Source of the DNA: an uncultured Arachnia sp.
Lineage (GTDB): Bacteria; Actinomycetota; Actinomycetes; Propionibacteriales; Propionibacteriaceae
Length of the DNA: 64,000 nucleotides
NCBI GenBank assembly: GCA_947499145.1
Contig: CANMNB010000005.1
Coordinates: 186,001-250,000 of the forward strand
Direction of reading: 5' to 3'
Shown piece after piece: positions 1,672 through 9,153 of this stretch. Every line of letters starts with the position of its first letter. Position 1 is the first letter of the stretch. Both the position numbers and the translations under genes were made by a program. A model generated the notes under the pieces. That model was not told the origin of the DNA. It saw only the letters and a program-made list of their open reading frames with translations, and did no database searches.

Positions 1672-2587
1672 CCAGGGGATCGACGGCCACCGCGAGGAAG
1701 AGCAGGGCCAGGTAGGTGTTGGACCAGTGGAACAGCCGCATGGCCTTCAGCTGGGCTCCGGCCAGACCTGCGCGGGCCCGCCGCCACAGGAGCGCCGCCT
1801 CGACGATGAAGACGCCACCGAGCACGACGGCGACCGCAGGGTAGAGCCAGCCGGTGGGGGCCACGGGCCACAGGACCAGTGACACGACAACCGTGACAAG
1901 TGTGTACCAGAAGATCTGCTTCGCCACGTGCGGTGCGGGCCGGACCACGGGCAGCATGGGAACGGACGCGGCCGCGTAGTCGTCCTTGTAGCGAAACGCC
2001 AGCGCCCAAGTGTGCGGCGGTGTCCAGAAGAACACGACCGCGAAGAGCACGAACGGCGCCAGCGCGAGCTCACCGGTCACCGCGGTCCACCCGATGAGCG
2101 GCGGGAAGCACCCGGCGATCCCGCCCCACACGATGTTCTGAGACGTCCGGCGCTTGAGCCACATCGTGTACACGAACACGTAGAAGGCGTTGGCCGCGAG
2201 CGCCAACAGCGCGGAGAGCCAGTTGGCGCCGAACCCGAGGACGAGAGTGGCTGCGATGCCCAGCACGACGCCGAACACGAGCGCCGGCACCTTGCCCACC
2301 TGGTGCCGGGGAACGGGTCGGCGGCGGGTCCGCCGCATGATCTCGTCGATGTCGGCATCGATCACGCAGTTGAAGGTGTTGGCGCTGGCTGCCGCGAACA
2401 TGCCGCCCAGCATCGTCCAGCCCACGAGCCCCCAGGGCGGCACTCCCCCCGCCGCCAGGAACATCGCCGGGACCGTGGTCACGAGCAGCAGTTCAATGAT
2501 CCTGGGCTTCGTGAGGGCGATGTAGGCCCGGAGCACGTCTGTCCAGCGAGCCGTCGCCGAGGGCGCATCGACAGCACCGGAAAACAC
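1664..2587 (-). CDS. ctaB: Protoheme IX farnesyltransferase CtaB
   Basis: UbiA-superfamily prenyltransferase (307 residues) that adds farnesyl to protoheme to make heme O, the substrate of CtaA. The first Asp-rich motif NCVIDADID near residue 80 matches the family NxxxDxxxD, followed by the RRTRRRPVP loop; hydrophobic helices run to the C-terminus. Two tandem GTG codons lie at 2590 and 2587. I prefer the second because GGAGG then sits about 6 bases upstream. A TAGACT hexamer at 2632-2637 could be the -10. The gene runs opposite to ctaA and overlaps its 3' end. Confidence 0.93.
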
Positions 2588-2753
2588 CACGGACCTCCAC
2601 CTCGACTCAGGATTCCGGCCCAGTCTACCCGTGAAGTCCGGAGGCGCCTCGCGGCGGCGGCGGGCCCCCGACTCGCCGGATCGAGCGCCGCCCGTGGGGT
2701 GCTCGGGGGGCCGGAGACGGTGACCATCGATTGCTGCTATTCCTCATGAATCC

Positions 2754-2783
2754 TTGTCAGGTGAATTTCTCCACAGCTAGTGT
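2754..2783 (+). promoter_or_regulatory. Candidate promoter of the nitric oxide reductase operon
   Basis: TTGTCA at 2754-2759, an 18-base spacer, then TAGTGT at 2778-2783, in a locally AT-richer stretch just upstream of the reductase gene. The predicted transcript start is near 2790, leaving a leader of roughly 45 bases. No clear FNR/CRP-type or NsrR-type palindrome is recognisable by eye. Confidence 0.4.
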
Positions 2784-2834
2784 TCTCCGGAACATGGCAC
2801 CGACGCCTCCCCCAGCAGAAGACAGGTGGACCAC

Positions 2835-5246
2835 GTGAGTCTCGTCAAGGACAATCCCGACCTCAATCCGTCGAAGACAGAGCTGGTGATCTCCAAGGGG
2901 TGGGTGCAGGGCGTGGCCCTCGTGTTCATCTTCGGCTTCTTCGTGATGGGATTCCTCGCCTACCGCACCTACAGCGACGGGATGCCCCTGCCGCAGCAGG
3001 TGGTCTCCGAGTCGGGCGACGTCGTCTTCACGCAGGAGGACGTCACGGAGGGGCAGGAGATCTTCCTCCGACGGGGCCTCCAGCAGTACGGGTCCATCAT
3101 GGGGCACGGCGCCTACCTCGGGCCGGACTACACGGCGGAGTACCTGCGCCTCGCCAGCGAGCACGTGACGGAGCAGCTACGCGCCCAGAACGTCCAGGAC
3201 CCCGCGGCGGCAACCGTCGAGCACATGAGGGAGAACCGTTACGACGAGGCCAGCGGCGTCCTCACCTACACCCCCGAACAGGTCAGCGCCTTCGAGGAGA
3301 TCACGCAGTACTACGCCGACTTCTTCGGGGTGGACACCACCGAGAACGGGTTGCTGCCCTCGAAGATCACCGATCCCGAGCAGATCCGAGACCTGACCGC
3401 GTTCTTCAGTTGGACGGCGTGGGCGAGTGCCGCCGACAGGCCGGGCCACGACTACTCCTACTCGAACAACTGGCCACCGGAGCCGCGCGTCGACAACCGG
3501 CCCACCGCCGACATCCTCGTGTGGTCCGCGATGTCACTGGTGGCCCTGCTCGCCGGTCTCGGCGCACTCTTCGCGGTCTACGGTCGCTGGAGCAAGAAGA
3601 TCGGGTGGCAAAGCAGCGAGACGCCCAGCCTGTCGTTCCTCCAGCCGGGGCGGGTCGGCATCACCAAGGCCCAGAAGGCGACGGCCTGGTTCTTCCTCGT
3701 GGTCTCGCTGCTCTTCCTCGCCCAGTCGACGCTGGGGGCCGCCGTGGAGCACTACCGGGCCGAGCTCTCGAGCTTCTTCGGCCTGGACCTGGCCCAGGTG
3801 CTCCCGTTCAACCTGGCCCGCACCTGGCACACCCAACTCTCCCTGCTCTGGACGGCGGCGGCCTTCCTCGCCGCCGCGATCTTCCTCGCTCCGATCATCT
3901 CCGGACGCGAGCCCAAGCGCCAGCACTGGCTCGCCTACGGACTCCTCGGCGCCCTCACGGTGGTCGTCGTCGGAATGCTGGCCGGCACGGCGATCAGCAC
4001 CTTCGGACCCGAGTGGGCAGCGGGATCGATTTTCTTCGATCAGCAATGGGAGTACCTCGACCTACCCAGGTTCTGGCAGATCCTGCTGGTGGTCGGGCTC
4101 TTCCTCTGGATCATCATCATCTACCGGGCGATCCGGTCGCGGCTGCGCACGGAGTCGAAGTTCAACATGCCGTGGCTCTTCTTCTATGCGGGGCTCGCCA
4201 TCCCCGGCTTCTACGCGGTGGGTCTGCTCGCCACCAACGACACGCACCTCACCGTGGCGGAGTTCTGGCGCTTCTGGGTGGTGCACCTCTGGGTGGAGGA
4301 CTTCCTTGAGCTGTTCACCACCGTCATGGTGGCCTACATCTTCGTGATGCTCGGTGTGGTGCGGCGCAAGATCGCCATCCAACTCGTCTTCCTCGACGTC
4401 ATCCTCTATTCAGCCGGTGGCGTCATCGGAACCATGCACCACCTGTACTTCTCGGGAACGCCGGTCGAGCACATGGCACTGGGCGCGTTCTTCTCCGCGC
4501 TCGAGGTCATCCCGCTCACCTTCCTCACCGTCGAGGCGTGGACGTTCCTCCAGCTCGGCTCCAAGCAGGAGTCACGCAGCAGCGCTCCATTCCCGCATCG
4601 GTGGTCGGTGATGTTCCTCGTGGCGGTCGGGTTCTGGAACTTCGTCGGGGCCGGCGTCTTCGGCTTCCTGATCAACCTGCCGATCGTCTCCTACTACCAG
4701 ATCGGCACGGCCCTGACGGCGAACCATGCCCACGGTTCGATGATGGGGGTCTATGGCATGCTCGCCGTCGGTCTGGCGCTCTTCGCGCTCCGTTACATCA
4801 TCAAGCCCGAGATGTGGTCCGACAGGATGGCGAAGCTCTCGTTCTGGTGCCTGAACACCGGCCTCGCCTGGATGGTGTTCGCCACGCTGCTGCCGCTGGG
4901 CGTGCTGCAGCTGTGGCACTCCGTCAACGAGGGCTACTTCGAGGCCCGGACCCTGGGCTACATCGCCCAACCCGGCAACGTGATCCTCGAGTGGCTCCGG
5001 ATGCCCGGTGACGTGGTGTTCCTGGTGGGCGGAATCCTTCCATTCGTTTGGCTGGCCTGGCTCGGTGTCCGTCACGCCATCCCCGCCACCGTGACCGCCA
5101 TGGAGCCCGAGACCCTCTACGTCATCGAGACCCAGGAGGCACGCGAGGACCGCACCGGGTACGCCGACGTCAAGGCCGGGAGCGTGCCGCCGAACAGCCG
5201 CTATGCCTCGGACCGACGCACTGACGAGGGCGATGACACACGATGA
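2835..5246 (+). CDS. norB: Quinol-dependent nitric oxide reductase (qNOR)
   Basis: Single-subunit membrane NO reductase (803 residues) that reduces 2 NO to N2O with quinol electrons, for NO detoxification or denitrification. It has the qNOR layout: an N-terminal membrane anchor, an extracytoplasmic cytochrome-c-like domain (about residues 40-230) without a CxxCH heme site, then about 13 helices of the heme-copper oxidase fold. Likely heme and FeB ligands appear in RTWHTQ, VVHLWVEDFLEL, GTMHHLYFSGTP and NHAHGSMMG. Glu replaces the Tyr of oxidases, as in NORs. The start is GTG 2835, with AGGTGG at 2824-2829; GTG 2826 is also possible but lacks a ribosome site. It overlaps the next gene by 4 bases and heads a six-gene operon. 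Confidence 0.93.
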   Translation: MSLVKDNPDLNPSKTELVISKGWVQGVALVFIFGFFVMGFLAYRTYSDGMPLPQQVVSESGDVVFTQEDVTEGQEIFLRRGLQQYGSIMGHGAYLGPDYTAEYLRLASEHVTEQLRAQNVQDPAAATVEHMRENRYDEASGVLTYTPEQVSAFEEITQYYADFFGVDTTENGLLPSKITDPEQIRDLTAFFSWTAWASAADRPGHDYSYSNNWPPEPRVDNRPTADILVWSAMSLVALLAGLGALFAVYGRWSKKIGWQSSETPSLSFLQPGRVGITKAQKATAWFFLVVSLLFLAQSTLGAAVEHYRAELSSFFGLDLAQVLPFNLARTWHTQLSLLWTAAAFLAAAIFLAPIISGREPKRQHWLAYGLLGALTVVVVGMLAGTAISTFGPEWAAGSIFFDQQWEYLDLPRFWQILLVVGLFLWIIIIYRAIRSRLRTESKFNMPWLFFYAGLAIPGFYAVGLLATNDTHLTVAEFWRFWVVHLWVEDFLELFTTVMVAYIFVMLGVVRRKIAIQLVFLDVILYSAGGVIGTMHHLYFSGTPVEHMALGAFFSALEVIPLTFLTVEAWTFLQLGSKQESRSSAPFPHRWSVMFLVAVGFWNFVGAGVFGFLINLPIVSYYQIGTALTANHAHGSMMGVYGMLAVGLALFALRYIIKPEMWSDRMAKLSFWCLNTGLAWMVFATLLPLGVLQLWHSVNEGYFEARTLGYIAQPGNVILEWLRMPGDVVFLVGGILPFVWLAWLGVRHAIPATVTAMEPETLYVIETQEAREDRTGYADVKAGSVPPNSRYASDRRTDEGDDTR

Positions 5247-5878
5247 GTGAGATCGAGCTCACGGCGTGGCTGGCCGCCGCGTACGGGATGGTCCTGCTGT
5301 TCGTCGCCTACGGCATCGACCAGCTCGCCCGGCGCGCCCAGACCCGGATCCAGGAGGACCGGAGCGGGGGCTTCGTCTACCACGAGAACCACGACGCGTG
5401 GCTGTGCCCGGAGGACCAGTGGCTCTACCCGAAGTCGTTCGACCCGGACAATCGCGTGATGCGATACCGCGGTCTCCCGCTGGTGTGCAACTCCTGCCCC
5501 GTGAAGGACACCTGCACGCAGTCCGACGACGGACGGGAGATGAGGCGACACGTTGACCCGTGGCCCGCGTCCGAGTCTGCCCGCTTCCACCGGGGCATCG
5601 CGTGCTCGGTGACGGTGCTGGCGGTGCTCTGGCCCGCACTCACAGCACTGGTGGTGGACTCGTGGACGAGCCAGGTGCTGGTGCTCGGGGCGGCCCTCGT
5701 CATCGCTCTGGCCGCCCTGCCGCTCTGGGCGTTCCTGCGCAGAACCCCTGCGGATCCCTTGGGCGCGGTGGTTCGCACCCTCGACGAGACGGTCGAGGAA
5801 CGACAGGCTGCCTCCGCAGCACTGTCCCGACGACGCACGACGTATGCGTCAGACAGGAGAATCGACCATGCCAACTGA
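5243..5878 (+). CDS. Membrane protein with transposase-like zinc-ribbon segment
   Basis: A 211-residue protein of unknown function. Residues about 5-28 form one membrane helix. Residues about 50-120 are soluble and carry four cysteines, in WLCPEDQWLYP and then CNSCPVKDTCTQSDDGREMRRH. Two hydrophobic segments follow (about 120-140 and 145-167), then a charged tail. The cysteine segment resembles the zinc-ribbon linker of IS1182-type transposases (CPxG...CxxCPLRxxCTxSxxGRxxxRH), an analogy from memory. No DDE catalytic core is present, so it is not a transposase. ATG 5243 overlaps the reductase stop (ATGA), implying coupled translation and a role tied to NO reduction, perhaps metal binding or redox sensing. 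Confidence 0.85.
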   Translation: MSEIELTAWLAAAYGMVLLFVAYGIDQLARRAQTRIQEDRSGGFVYHENHDAWLCPEDQWLYPKSFDPDNRVMRYRGLPLVCNSCPVKDTCTQSDDGREMRRHVDPWPASESARFHRGIACSVTVLAVLWPALTALVVDSWTSQVLVLGAALVIALAALPLWAFLRRTPADPLGAVVRTLDETVEERQAASAALSRRRTTYASDRRIDHAN

Positions 5879-6713
5879 GGTGATCCTCGTGATCCTCCTG
5901 CTCCTGGTCCTGGCGGCCTTGGCCGTCGCCTCGATCCGGGTGGTGCGCGAGTACGAACGGGTGGTTGCGTTCCGCCTCGGACGGCTGCGCGGGGCCCTGG
6001 GACCGGGACTGGTCTTCATGTTGCCGTTCCTCGACAAGCTCGTACGCGTCGACCTGAGGGTGGTGACCCTGACGATCCCCCCTCAGGAGGTCATCACGCG
6101 GGACAACGTGACCGCTCGCGTCAACGCCGTCGTGATGTTCCGTGTCACGGACCCGGTCCAGTCGGTCATGTCCGTCGAGAACCACGCCATCGCCACGTCG
6201 CAGTTCGCCCAGACCACGTTGCGATCCGTCGTTGGACGCGCGGACCTCGACACGCTGCTGGCGCACCGCGCCGACTTGAACGAGGACCTGGCCAAGTCCA
6301 TCGCCCGACAGACCCAGGAGTGGGGGGTCGAGGCGTCGGTCGTCGAGATCAAGGACGTCGAGATCCCGGAGATGATGCAGCGCGCGATGGCACGGGAAGC
6401 CGAGGCCGAACGCGAACGACGAGCCAAGGTCATCAGCGCGCGCGGCGAGCTCCAGGCCTCGCAGGAACTCCGGGACGCCGCCCTCACGCTGAGCGAGGCG
6501 CCCGCTTCGCTGCAGCTTCGCTACCTGCAGACCCTGCTCGAACTCGGGGCCGACCAGAACTCGACCGTCGTGTTCCCCCTGCCCATGGACATCGTCGGGC
6601 CGATCGTGCAGGCCGTCCAACGCCTGGGCGGCGACGACTCCCCCACCCCCGCTGCCGAATCAAGGCAGGGACTGAGCGTGGTCGACCGACCACTGGAAGG
6701 TGATTCACGATGA
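5868..6713 (+). CDS. Slipin (stomatin-like SPFH/band 7 protein)
   Basis: A 281-residue SPFH protein with one N-terminal membrane segment (about residues 4-22), then VREYERVVAFRLGR and GPGLVFMLPFLDK, the classic slipin opening. The band 7 domain runs to about residue 180 and is followed by an Ala/Glu/Arg-rich helix (AREAEAERERRAKVISA) that drives oligomerisation. Slipins organise membrane microdomains and often pair with an NfeD protease partner, but no nfeD lies here. ATG 5868 is preferred over upstream in-frame codons because AGGAGA lies 8 bases before it; it overlaps the previous gene by 11 bases. Co-transcription with qNOR suggests scaffolding of that enzyme, which is inference. Confidence 0.9.
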   Translation: MPTEVILVILLLLVLAALAVASIRVVREYERVVAFRLGRLRGALGPGLVFMLPFLDKLVRVDLRVVTLTIPPQEVITRDNVTARVNAVVMFRVTDPVQSVMSVENHAIATSQFAQTTLRSVVGRADLDTLLAHRADLNEDLAKSIARQTQEWGVEASVVEIKDVEIPEMMQRAMAREAEAERERRAKVISARGELQASQELRDAALTLSEAPASLQLRYLQTLLELGADQNSTVVFPLPMDIVGPIVQAVQRLGGDDSPTPAAESRQGLSVVDRPLEGDSR

Positions 6714-7015
6714 GTGACACGACGCTGCAGACGGCCCCCGGGCGTCCCGTCCGCCTCGAGCCCACCGCCCCCGGGTTCTGGATGCTGCTGCTGGGGGTGT
6801 GCGTCGCAGCCCTGGCGCCCCTGTTCGGCTTCCTGGTCGGCGTCATGGTCGAACGTCCGCAGGGTGACGTCGCCGTGGACCCCCTCTACCTGGGTCTGTT
6901 CATCGGGGTGGTCGTGGGAGGGCTCGGGGTCCTCCTGGCCGTGCTGGGGGGCGTGCGCCTCTGGCGGCACCACCGAGGGCAGGCGCCACAGCGATCGGTC
7001 GAGGAGGCGCGGTGA
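6710..7015 (+). CDS. Small two-helix membrane protein of the nor operon
   Basis: A 101-residue protein of unknown function. Two hydrophobic segments (about residues 23-47 and 59-83) flank a short acidic loop, and the C-terminus is basic (RLWRHHRGQ), so both ends probably face the cytoplasm. The start ATG overlaps the slipin stop codon (ATGA) and its own stop overlaps the next GTG start, so it is locked into the operon. No family is recognised. It could be an accessory subunit or assembly factor for the NO reductase. Confidence 0.78.
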   Translation: MSDTTLQTAPGRPVRLEPTAPGFWMLLLGVCVAALAPLFGFLVGVMVERPQGDVAVDPLYLGLFIGVVVGGLGVLLAVLGGVRLWRHHRGQAPQRSVEEAR

Positions 7016-7425
7016 GCACCGCCGTCTCGTCCCTGCACGCGCCGGCCAACCGGCACCGCTCCGACGCGGCCCCGGACCGCTTCATGCGTCGGCTGCTGGG
7101 CGTCACGGCGACCGGCACCCGCTCCGCCGACGGGGCGCACCGAGCGTTCCGAGCCTCGGTCGTCGTCTCGGGCGTACGATGCCTCATCACCTACCTCCTG
7201 GTGCCGATCGTGGTTCCCATGGCCAGCCTCGCGGGGTGGGTCGCGGCACCGATCGGGATCGCCCTGTGCCTCTACGCGGTCGTCAACGGGATCGTGAGCC
7301 TCCGCCGTTTTTGGGGGGCCGACCACCGTCAACGGTGGCTCTACACAGGGTTCATGACTGTTGTCTTCGCCATCCTCGCCGCCGCCCTGGTCTCCGACCT
7401 CACCCGCATTGGAGCCCTGTCATGA
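7012..7425 (+). CDS. Membrane protein of the nor operon, unknown function
   Basis: A 137-residue protein: a hydrophilic, basic N-terminal region to about residue 45, then three hydrophobic segments (about 50-68, 72-95 and 110-130). The second and third are separated by an Arg-rich cytoplasmic loop, SLRRFWGADHRQRW. It begins with GTG inside the stop of the previous gene (GTGA) and ends in the ATGA of the next. No recognised domain. Its conserved-looking coupling with the neighbours is the main evidence that it is a real gene. Confidence 0.78.
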   Translation: MSTAVSSLHAPANRHRSDAAPDRFMRRLLGVTATGTRSADGAHRAFRASVVVSGVRCLITYLLVPIVVPMASLAGWVAAPIGIALCLYAVVNGIVSLRRFWGADHRQRWLYTGFMTVVFAILAAALVSDLTRIGALS

Positions 7426-7577
7426 CCACCGAGATCCCCCAGGAGTTCGACGTCGAGCGCTACCAGGCGGAACACGAACAGCCCAGCGAGGCGGAGAGCG
7501 CCGTGCTCACCATCCTCCTCTTCTGCGGTCTGGTGGTGTTCACCGTCGGTTGCACGATGCTCGGGTGGTTCGGCTGA
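7422..7577 (+). CDS. Single-helix 51-residue membrane protein, last gene of the nor operon
   Basis: A short gene starting at the ATGA overlap with the preceding stop. It encodes an acidic N-terminal half (EQPSEAESA) and one membrane helix (about residues 27-49) ending in GCTMLGWFG just before the stop. It has the size and shape of the tiny accessory subunits found with heme-copper oxidases. The upstream in-frame reading continues through the neighbouring gene, so the ATG at 7422 is the sensible start. Function unknown; a stabilising subunit of the NO reductase is a guess from context. Confidence 0.7.
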   Translation: MTTEIPQEFDVERYQAEHEQPSEAESAVLTILLFCGLVVFTVGCTMLGWFG

Positions 7578-7609
7578 CAGACGGACGGGGTCCGGGCCCG
7601 GGTGAACGG

Positions 7610-7615
7610 TAGTGT
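7610..7615 (+). promoter_or_regulatory. -10 hexamer of zwf (leaderless)
   Basis: TAGTGT lies 8 bases before the zwf ATG, and no ribosome-binding sequence is present. This fits a transcript beginning at or next to the start codon. Confidence 0.5.
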
Positions 7616-7623
7616 TGCCCGCG

Positions 7624-9153
7624 ATGAACACCTACGCCAATCCCCTCCGCGATCCGCAGGATCGCCGCCTGCCGCGGATCGCCGGCCCCTGCGTCCTCGT
7701 GATCTTCGGTGTCACGGGTGACCTCTCGCGCAAGAAGCTCATGCCGGCGGTCTACGACCTCGCCAACCGCGGGATGCTGCCGCCGGGCTTCGGTCTGGTG
7801 GGCTTCGCCCGACGCGAGTGGGCGGACCAGGACTTCGCCCAGGTCGTGCACGACGCCGTCAAGGAGAACGCCCGGACCGAGTTCCGCGAGGAGGTGTGGG
7901 AGCAGCTCCTCGAAGGGATCCGATTCGTCCCCGGCACCTTCGATTCCGACGACTCGTTCCGCAAGCTGAAGGACACCATCTCCGAGCTCGACAACGCCCG
8001 GGGCACCGGCGGCAACCACGCCTTCTACCTCTCCATCCCGCCGTCGAGCTTCGAGACGGTCATCAGCCAGCTCAAGCGACACGGCCTCACGGACCGGAGC
8101 GAGGGCAACTGGAACCGGGTGGTCATCGAGAAGCCGTTCGGCCACGACCTGCAGTCGGCCAGGGAGCTCAACGACGTCGTCTCCTCGCTGTTCGAGCCGC
8201 AGGAGGTGTTCCGCATCGACCACTACCTGGGCAAGGAGACGGTGCAGAACATGCTGGCGCTGCGCTTCGCGAACCAGCTCTTCGAACCGATCTGGAACAA
8301 CCACTACGTCTCCCACGTCCAGATCACCATGGCCGAGGACATCGGCATCGGGGGTCGGGCCGGCTACTACGACGGCATCGGCGCTGCTCGCGACGTGATC
8401 CAAAACCACTTGCTGCAGTTGCTGGCCCTCACGGCCATGGAGGAGCCCACGTCGTTCGAGGCCTCACAGCTGCGGGCCGAGAAGCAGAAGGTGCTGGCCG
8501 CCGCCCGGGTCCCCGACGACTACGCCCGCCACACGGCCCGTGGCCAGTACGCTGCCGGCTGGCAGGGTGGACGCCCGGTACGCGGGTACCTGGAGGAGGA
8601 CGGTGTCGACGCCAACTCCCACACCGAGACCTATGCGGCCATCCGCGTCGATGTCGACAACCGCCGCTGGGCCGGGGTGCCCTTCTACCTGCGCACGGCC
8701 AAACGGATGCCGCGCCGCGTCACGGAGGTGGCGCTCAGCTTCAAGCAGGCCCCGCACCTCCCGTTCACGGAGACCGACACGGAAGCCCTGGGCACCAACG
8801 CGTTGGTCATGCGCATCCAACCCGATGAGGGAGTGACGCTGCGCTTCGGCGCCAAGGTTCCGGGCACCCAGATGGAGATCCGTGAGGTCTCGATGGACTT
8901 CGGCTACGGCGGCTCCTTCACGGAGTCGTCCCCGGAGGCCTACGAGCGCCTGATCCTGGATGTCCTCCTCGGGGATCCACCACTGTTCCCGCAGCAGGAG
9001 GAGGTGGAGCTCAGCTGGCAGATCCTCGATCCGGTGATCGAGTACTGGGAGTCACTCGACGAGCAGCCGCAGCCCTACACCGCCGGCACCTGGGGTCCCC
9101 GCTGCGGCATCGAGATGCTGGCCCATGACGGTTTCACCTGGCGACGTCCGTAG
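7624..9153 (+). CDS. zwf: Glucose-6-phosphate 1-dehydrogenase
   Basis: First enzyme of the oxidative pentose phosphate pathway (509 residues); oxidises glucose 6-phosphate to 6-phosphogluconolactone, making NADPH. The N-terminal Rossmann motif is VIFGVTGDLSRKKL, the substrate-binding and catalytic signature is FRIDHYLGKETVQN near residue 200, and the C-terminal GFTWRRP is typical of the actinobacterial enzyme. ATG 7624 is preferred over GTG 7612, which lies inside the likely -10 hexamer. It forms an operon with opcA and pgl downstream. Confidence 0.96.
   Translation: MNTYANPLRDPQDRRLPRIAGPCVLVIFGVTGDLSRKKLMPAVYDLANRGMLPPGFGLVGFARREWADQDFAQVVHDAVKENARTEFREEVWEQLLEGIRFVPGTFDSDDSFRKLKDTISELDNARGTGGNHAFYLSIPPSSFETVISQLKRHGLTDRSEGNWNRVVIEKPFGHDLQSARELNDVVSSLFEPQEVFRIDHYLGKETVQNMLALRFANQLFEPIWNNHYVSHVQITMAEDIGIGGRAGYYDGIGAARDVIQNHLLQLLALTAMEEPTSFEASQLRAEKQKVLAAARVPDDYARHTARGQYAAGWQGGRPVRGYLEEDGVDANSHTETYAAIRVDVDNRRWAGVPFYLRTAKRMPRRVTEVALSFKQAPHLPFTETDTEALGTNALVMRIQPDEGVTLRFGAKVPGTQMEIREVSMDFGYGGSFTESSPEAYERLILDVLLGDPPLFPQQEEVELSWQILDPVIEYWESLDEQPQPYTAGTWGPRCGIEMLAHDGFTWRRP

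Follow-up and report, generated by a model that had tools for sequence, protein, structure and literature searches.

The gene that directly follows the quinol-dependent nitric oxide reductase (qNOR) gene in a 64,000-nucleotide stretch of DNA from an uncultured Arachnia sp. (the window) encodes a membrane protein with a four-cysteine module homologous to a segment of IS1182-family transposases. We call this protein ZR, a name which is not meant to imply a zinc ribbon. The computed results comprise the homology of the module, the conservation of its cysteines, the linkage of the gene to qNOR, its occurrence with one qNOR clade, and a motif shared by the C-terminal tails of both proteins. The interpretation we favor, and which we consider rather probable, is that a transposase-derived metal module has been reused in an accessory protein dedicated to qNOR, likely a structural or assembly partner acting together with an SPFH protein, with the tail motif YxSDRR as a docking tag. 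Reuse of part of a bacterial transposase within a membrane system of respiration is well supported here, and the results suggest that one actinobacterial clade of NO reductases has a previously undescribed accessory protein and a tail motif private to it; in the literature excerpts available to us, no paper on the ZR protein or on a nor operon containing a stomatin-like gene was recognized.

Organization of the Locus

The genome carrying the window is 2.88 Mb in size and its closest named matches, among the matches listed, are Tessaracoccus and other Propionibacteriaceae. The qNOR gene (2826..5246, + strand, as are all features below unless stated) encodes an enzyme of the short type, recognized by PF22085 and COX1, which aligns over 700 residues to its best solved relative 3ayf, the Geobacillus qNOR, with the motif residues of the active site and the quinol site retained. 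While this alignment and the active-site motifs are shared with solved qNORs such as 3ayf, the enzyme of the window differs in belonging to a separate short-type clade and in being accompanied by ZR; to our knowledge no ZR-like protein has been described alongside the solved enzymes. NO dismutases differ from NO reductases by specific residue changes, and on this basis an identity as NO dismutase was rejected, the HH and HLWVE columns and the quinol-site H and D columns being retained wherever the rows cover them. Just upstream of qNOR there are a COX15/CtaA-type gene (784-1671, + strand) and a UbiA-type prenyltransferase gene (1664-2590, - strand), the latter divergent from qNOR.

The ZR gene (5243..5878) starts with ATG and encodes 211 amino acids; its identification draws on the list of open reading frames, the NF033551 match and an AlphaFold model. 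The preliminary description had it fixed in the operon by ATGA overlaps. This holds upstream, where the ATG at 5243 overlaps the qNOR stop codon TGA (5244-5246), but not downstream, where the ATG of the SPFH gene at 5868 is preceded by AGGAGA and the two genes overlap by 11 bases. The SPFH or stomatin-like protein (5868..6713, alternative start 5844; Band_7 E 2e-38) is followed by two membrane proteins with no family above cut-off, one of 101 amino acids (6710..7015) and one of 137 (7012..7425), the joins being ATGA at 6710 and GTGA at 7012. A promoter and terminator scan of 2500-7700 gave no signal exceeding that of shuffled sequence.

Relatives were taken as the best 80 of 151 from a species-genome collection plus 24 loci from 147 genomes of the family, giving 104 loci; several of the 24 repeat the same species and many of the 104 are related, so that the counts overstate independence. 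In this set (best 80 of 151, plus 24) qNOR adjoins ZR in 104 of 104 loci and an SPFH gene is present in 102, the loci without it (L103 and L104) being two pieces of one broken gene. A relative of the 101-residue protein occurs in 76 of the 104 loci and one of the 137-residue protein in 30, some loci being incomplete. In 100 measured loci the gap between qNOR and ZR ranges from -4 to +43 bases, with overlapping genes in 76, and the position of ZR in the operon is the same across several classes. Broken copies of the qNOR-ZR-SPFH unit are present in two genomes of the family (L103/L104 and L145). One further locus (L009) comes from a metagenome bin labeled Acidobacteria and carries an actinobacterial-type qNOR-ZR-SPFH unit, possibly through a binning error or misplaced contig or through recent transfer.

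Homology of the Cysteine Module to IS1182 Transposases

The module occupies residues 43-107 of ZR (5369..5563) and has the cysteine pattern C55-x26-C82-x2-C85-x5-C91. Its likeness to the cysteine segment of IS1182 transposases, proposed from the letters of the sequence in the preliminary description, was borne out. The quoted cysteine pattern is present, and a search with transposase profiles matched NF033551 (IS1182 transposase) to residues 43-107 with E 2.8e-9 and 36.4 bits, the cut-off being 270 bits; this match covers positions 357-420 of the 488 of the profile. NF033551 was matched independently by 18 of 20 diverse ZR relatives. PF13751 remained sub-threshold, with E 0.0049 for the whole protein and 0.0011 for the module segment, and scans of Pfam and NCBIfam gave no family that matched ZR over its full length or exceeded its cut-off. 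Profile-profile alignment by hhalign of ZR with six aligned transposases gave a probability of 97.9 and E 4.2e-13 over 79 columns with 33% identity. The description had named a lack of transposase similarity, or homologues missing the cysteines, as outcomes that would speak against it; instead the profiles matched, and all four cysteines are retained in the 102 of 102 loci which contain the region (among the best 80 of 151 relatives plus 24). In one relative, L063, the spacing is C-x2-C-x3-C instead of C-x2-C-x5-C.

The region is short, at about 65 residues, and its pattern is partly common to WhiB proteins, both of which would suit convergence, in which unrelated segments had arrived at similarly spaced cysteines. 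With all cysteines masked on both sides, however, hhalign still gave E 4.3e-8, and the ZR profile, which found 17 of 36 transposase ORFs unmasked, still found 7 of 36; among 36 reversed transposase ORFs it found none. Since the profile match persists after masking, and given the identity of 33% over 79 columns, convergence appears very improbable, and sequence comparison indicates that the likeness is one of shared descent which goes beyond cysteine spacing. The shared residues follow the order F-x-Y ... D-x-W/Y-x-C ... RY ... CxxCPxKxxCT ... GRxxxR, and C-x(n)-C-x2-C-x5-C is found in 24 of the 36 ORFs matched by the transposase profile in the loci read, the other 12 being truncated, in another frame, or long ORFs in which the pattern was not found. 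In other respects ZR differs from IS1182 transposases: it has three membrane helices and a respiratory-operon setting, and it lacks DUF772 and DDE_Tnp_1. An intact transposase (L116) contains DUF772, DDE_Tnp_1, and PF13751, as opposed to the sub-threshold PF13751 piece of ZR.

Homology to the transposase segment would also be expected if ZR were a transposase remnant in decay that had become joined to membrane helices by accident. By pN/pS, however, the module is more conserved than the rest of ZR (0.05-0.30 against 0.29-0.46 for residues 108-200, from eight comparisons, two of them repeats of others); with the cysteines invariant and the place in the operon kept in several classes, such decay is hardly credible.

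Distribution of the Module and Probable Direction of Capture

A ZR profile built from 20 proteins was searched in 396 Actinomycetota genomes, with seven candidates scored per genome in the rows shown, and gave matches in 17 of them; rarer contexts may be missed. As read, these 17 genomes fall into three groups: nine carry ZR or fragments of it, in one case (G455) together with a transposase piece; seven carry IS1182 transposases or what remains of them, which the profile matched over the module with a best E of 2.7e-13; and one carries a WhiB protein. NF033551 matched in 56 of 159 sampled genomes of the phylum, 19 of which exceed the cut-off; in the window's own genome there was no match above cut-off. 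In a tree built from 21 modules of ZR and 24 of transposases, ZR fell into a single clade with a support of 100, its point of attachment among the transposases not being resolved. By eye, the ZR of L110 is the most transposase-like. Searches for ZR in plasmids gave no match, and no transposases were found in viral contigs, where they were sought for a comparison model. The description of the module as captured stands as regards homology, and as regards direction it is qualified: transposase to ZR is the likelier and simpler course as judged from distribution, because the module is widespread in transposases, across many families of the phylum, and ZR was seen only with one qNOR clade.

Predicted Structure and Topology, and Putative Metal Site, of ZR

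The claim that ZR has three membrane helices and no DDE core agrees with our results. AlphaFold modeled with high confidence a helix 1 of residues 6-41 (5258..5365), which includes the first membrane span, a helix 2 of residues 109-134 (5567..5644), which overlaps the conserved SExxRFHRG segment of the alignment, and a helix 3 of residues 141-167 (5663..5743) made up of two pieces, 141-157 and 159-167. No DDE core was seen, the NF033551 match being confined to the cysteine module. In the full-length model the module is of low confidence, with blocks of pLDDT 39-57, and when modeled alone with 75 alignment rows it reached a mean pLDDT of 56. A fold search of these low-confidence models against the PDB gave a best E of 1.4 for the full model and 0.32 for the module alone; a PDB sequence search with ZR alone found no match, and PDB profile searches gave best E values of 0.069 (an amidase) for the ZR profile and 0.54 for the transposase profile. 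Among 101 sequences the mean number of K and R residues is 3.7 after helix 1, 0.4 in the loop between helices 2 and 3, and 1.9 after helix 3, and the N-terminus has a net charge of -0.9. From these positive charges the module and the C-terminal tail of ZR are both predicted to face the cytoplasm. In known NO reductases the C-terminus of qNOR is cytoplasmic, and the two tails would thus lie on the same side of the membrane.

In a zinc ribbon the zinc is held by two CxxC knuckles. The ZR module has one CxxC plus two single cysteines, a spacing that departs from the two-knuckle pattern, and the earlier label of zinc ribbon is unproven. Several 4Fe-4S proteins, among them WhiB and MutY, are known to have such spacing, and so are zinc sites; to judge by the sequence it equally fits either. 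The four cysteines may bind one metal centre. These results make the question of zinc versus iron-sulfur in the IS1182 cysteine module a testable one.

WhiB proteins carry an NO-reactive 4Fe-4S cluster, and the module could be a 4Fe-4S switch that responds to NO or redox state at the cytoplasmic face of qNOR, much like a WhiB anchored in the membrane. The enzyme with which ZR is paired consumes NO, the arrangement C-x26-C-x2-CPV-x3-C fits the known WhiB pattern, and ZR and WhiB (PF02467) share the cysteine spacing and a CxxCPVxxxC core. Pfam Whib scored E 0.042 and 14.8 bits on the module segment, below its gathering score of 23.6, and the ZR profile picked up a true WhiB in one genome (G508, L120:1175-1519) with E 3.7e-4, PF02467 matching that protein with E 3.9e-22. 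The CxxCPVxxxC core is the route by which the profile finds this protein. Masking the cysteines, however, lowers the WhiB score from 22.8 to 7.3 bits, so that the match rests mostly on cysteines; moreover, an output domain was not seen in ZR, and the L063 relative has the altered C-x2-C-x3-C spacing. We regard such a switch as possible although rather unlikely.

Association With One Clade of qNOR

Across the 147 genomes of the family, qNOR was found in 34 and ZR in 23, counting one with a broken ZR (G038), and all 23 ZR genomes have qNOR. The 11 family genomes with qNOR and no ZR consist of ten with the long type only, in which a search for ZR gave no match, and one (G094) with broken short-type pieces next to SPFH (L145). 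One genome (G027) has both types and carries ZR at the short one, and the fetched stretches of 11 long-type loci (L134-L144) contained no ZR, SPFH, or tail motif. Among the 396 genomes of the phylum qNOR was found in 11, seven of them with ZR; of the others, two (G279 and G285) were assigned to the long type from their profile scores, with the tree in agreement for G285, the one of the two that was fetched, and two (G189 and G396) have a related short qNOR. Conversely, two genomes (G455 and G509) contain ZR pieces, and in the stretches that were read no qNOR accompanies them. The expectation that homologues always neighbor qNOR was thus upheld in the 104 loci (best 80 of 151 plus 24) and fails for these two sets of pieces; apart from them and from G189 and G396, linkage and co-inheritance are those of an accessory protein.

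A FastTree phylogeny of 48 qNORs, some of them partial, was rooted on the long type, L006 having been dropped as too short. The ZR-bearing qNORs form one clade (0.953) beside the pair G189/G396, and within it three loci with ZR but without SPFH branch first. ZR appears to be the dedicated partner of this one clade, and the short type of qNOR can exist without ZR, as in G189 and G396. The tree suggests that ZR was gained once and that, as the SPFH-less loci branch first, it preceded SPFH; loss of ZR in G189/G396 may be the alternative. The likely steps readable on the tree are qNOR alone, then addition of ZR, then of SPFH. An IS1182-type cysteine segment would have been captured once, on the stem of this actinobacterial clade, with the SPFH scaffold gene joining the operon afterward. 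As ZR predates SPFH on the tree, SPFH cannot be its original partner.

The strict pairing with one qNOR clade would also suit an iron-delivery or maturation factor which loads the active site of qNOR. A precedent is found in cNOR, for which the abstract of PMC9976466 gives NorQ and NorD as essential for insertion of FeB; like ZR, these are products of helper genes dedicated to one enzyme. They are, however, AAA+ and VWA proteins, whereas ZR has no such domain and no sequence link to NorQ or NorD in family scans. Since related qNORs without ZR exist as well (G189, G396), we consider a role of this kind unlikely.

A Motif Shared by the C-Terminal Tails

The tails of qNOR and ZR do not otherwise align by eye, yet both contain YxSDRR, in the window as YASDRR at 5202..5219 in qNOR and at 5843..5860 in ZR. 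YxSD was found in 68 of 104 qNOR tails, against at most 4 in 300 shuffles, and in 65 of 101 ZR tails (L020, L103, and L104 dropped), against at most 5 in 300 shuffles. In the window's genome a degenerate pattern has five matches, and Y-x-S-D-R-R itself occurs only in the tails of qNOR and ZR. In 12 further genomes, where matches elsewhere are common in the larger ones, both tails matched in seven of the eight genomes with ZR (G119, G084, G117, G124, G054, G072, and G538), G471 being the exception. YxSDRR was not found in the 11 long-type qNOR tails, in the three SPFH-less qNORs, or in G189/G396. A DNA-level element as the source of the motif was rejected, as the codons vary synonymously.

Under the favored interpretation, ZR would hold qNOR together with the SPFH protein as a structural or assembly partner, and the tails of qNOR and ZR would serve as a common docking tag. 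In an extension of this scheme which we regard as speculative and distinctly improbable, NO escaping from qNOR would nitrosylate an Fe-S cluster of the module and alter the gathering of YxSDRR-tagged tails by SPFH, making assembly responsive to NO. Relaxed to YxS[DE], the motif was present in both tails of 55 of 101 loci, in one tail of 23 and in neither of 23; given these last two groups, docking by the motif cannot be universal. At least one tail had it in 71 of 73 loci with a detectable 101-residue neighbor versus 7 of 28 without, an association confounded by relatedness and by detection limits. A second word, RYSTRWG or RFATRWG, is found in 21 of 101 ZR tails (e.g., L057, L065, L076), instead of the motif or as well as it, and RYSTRWG-like ZR tails often pair with a qNOR without YxSDRR.
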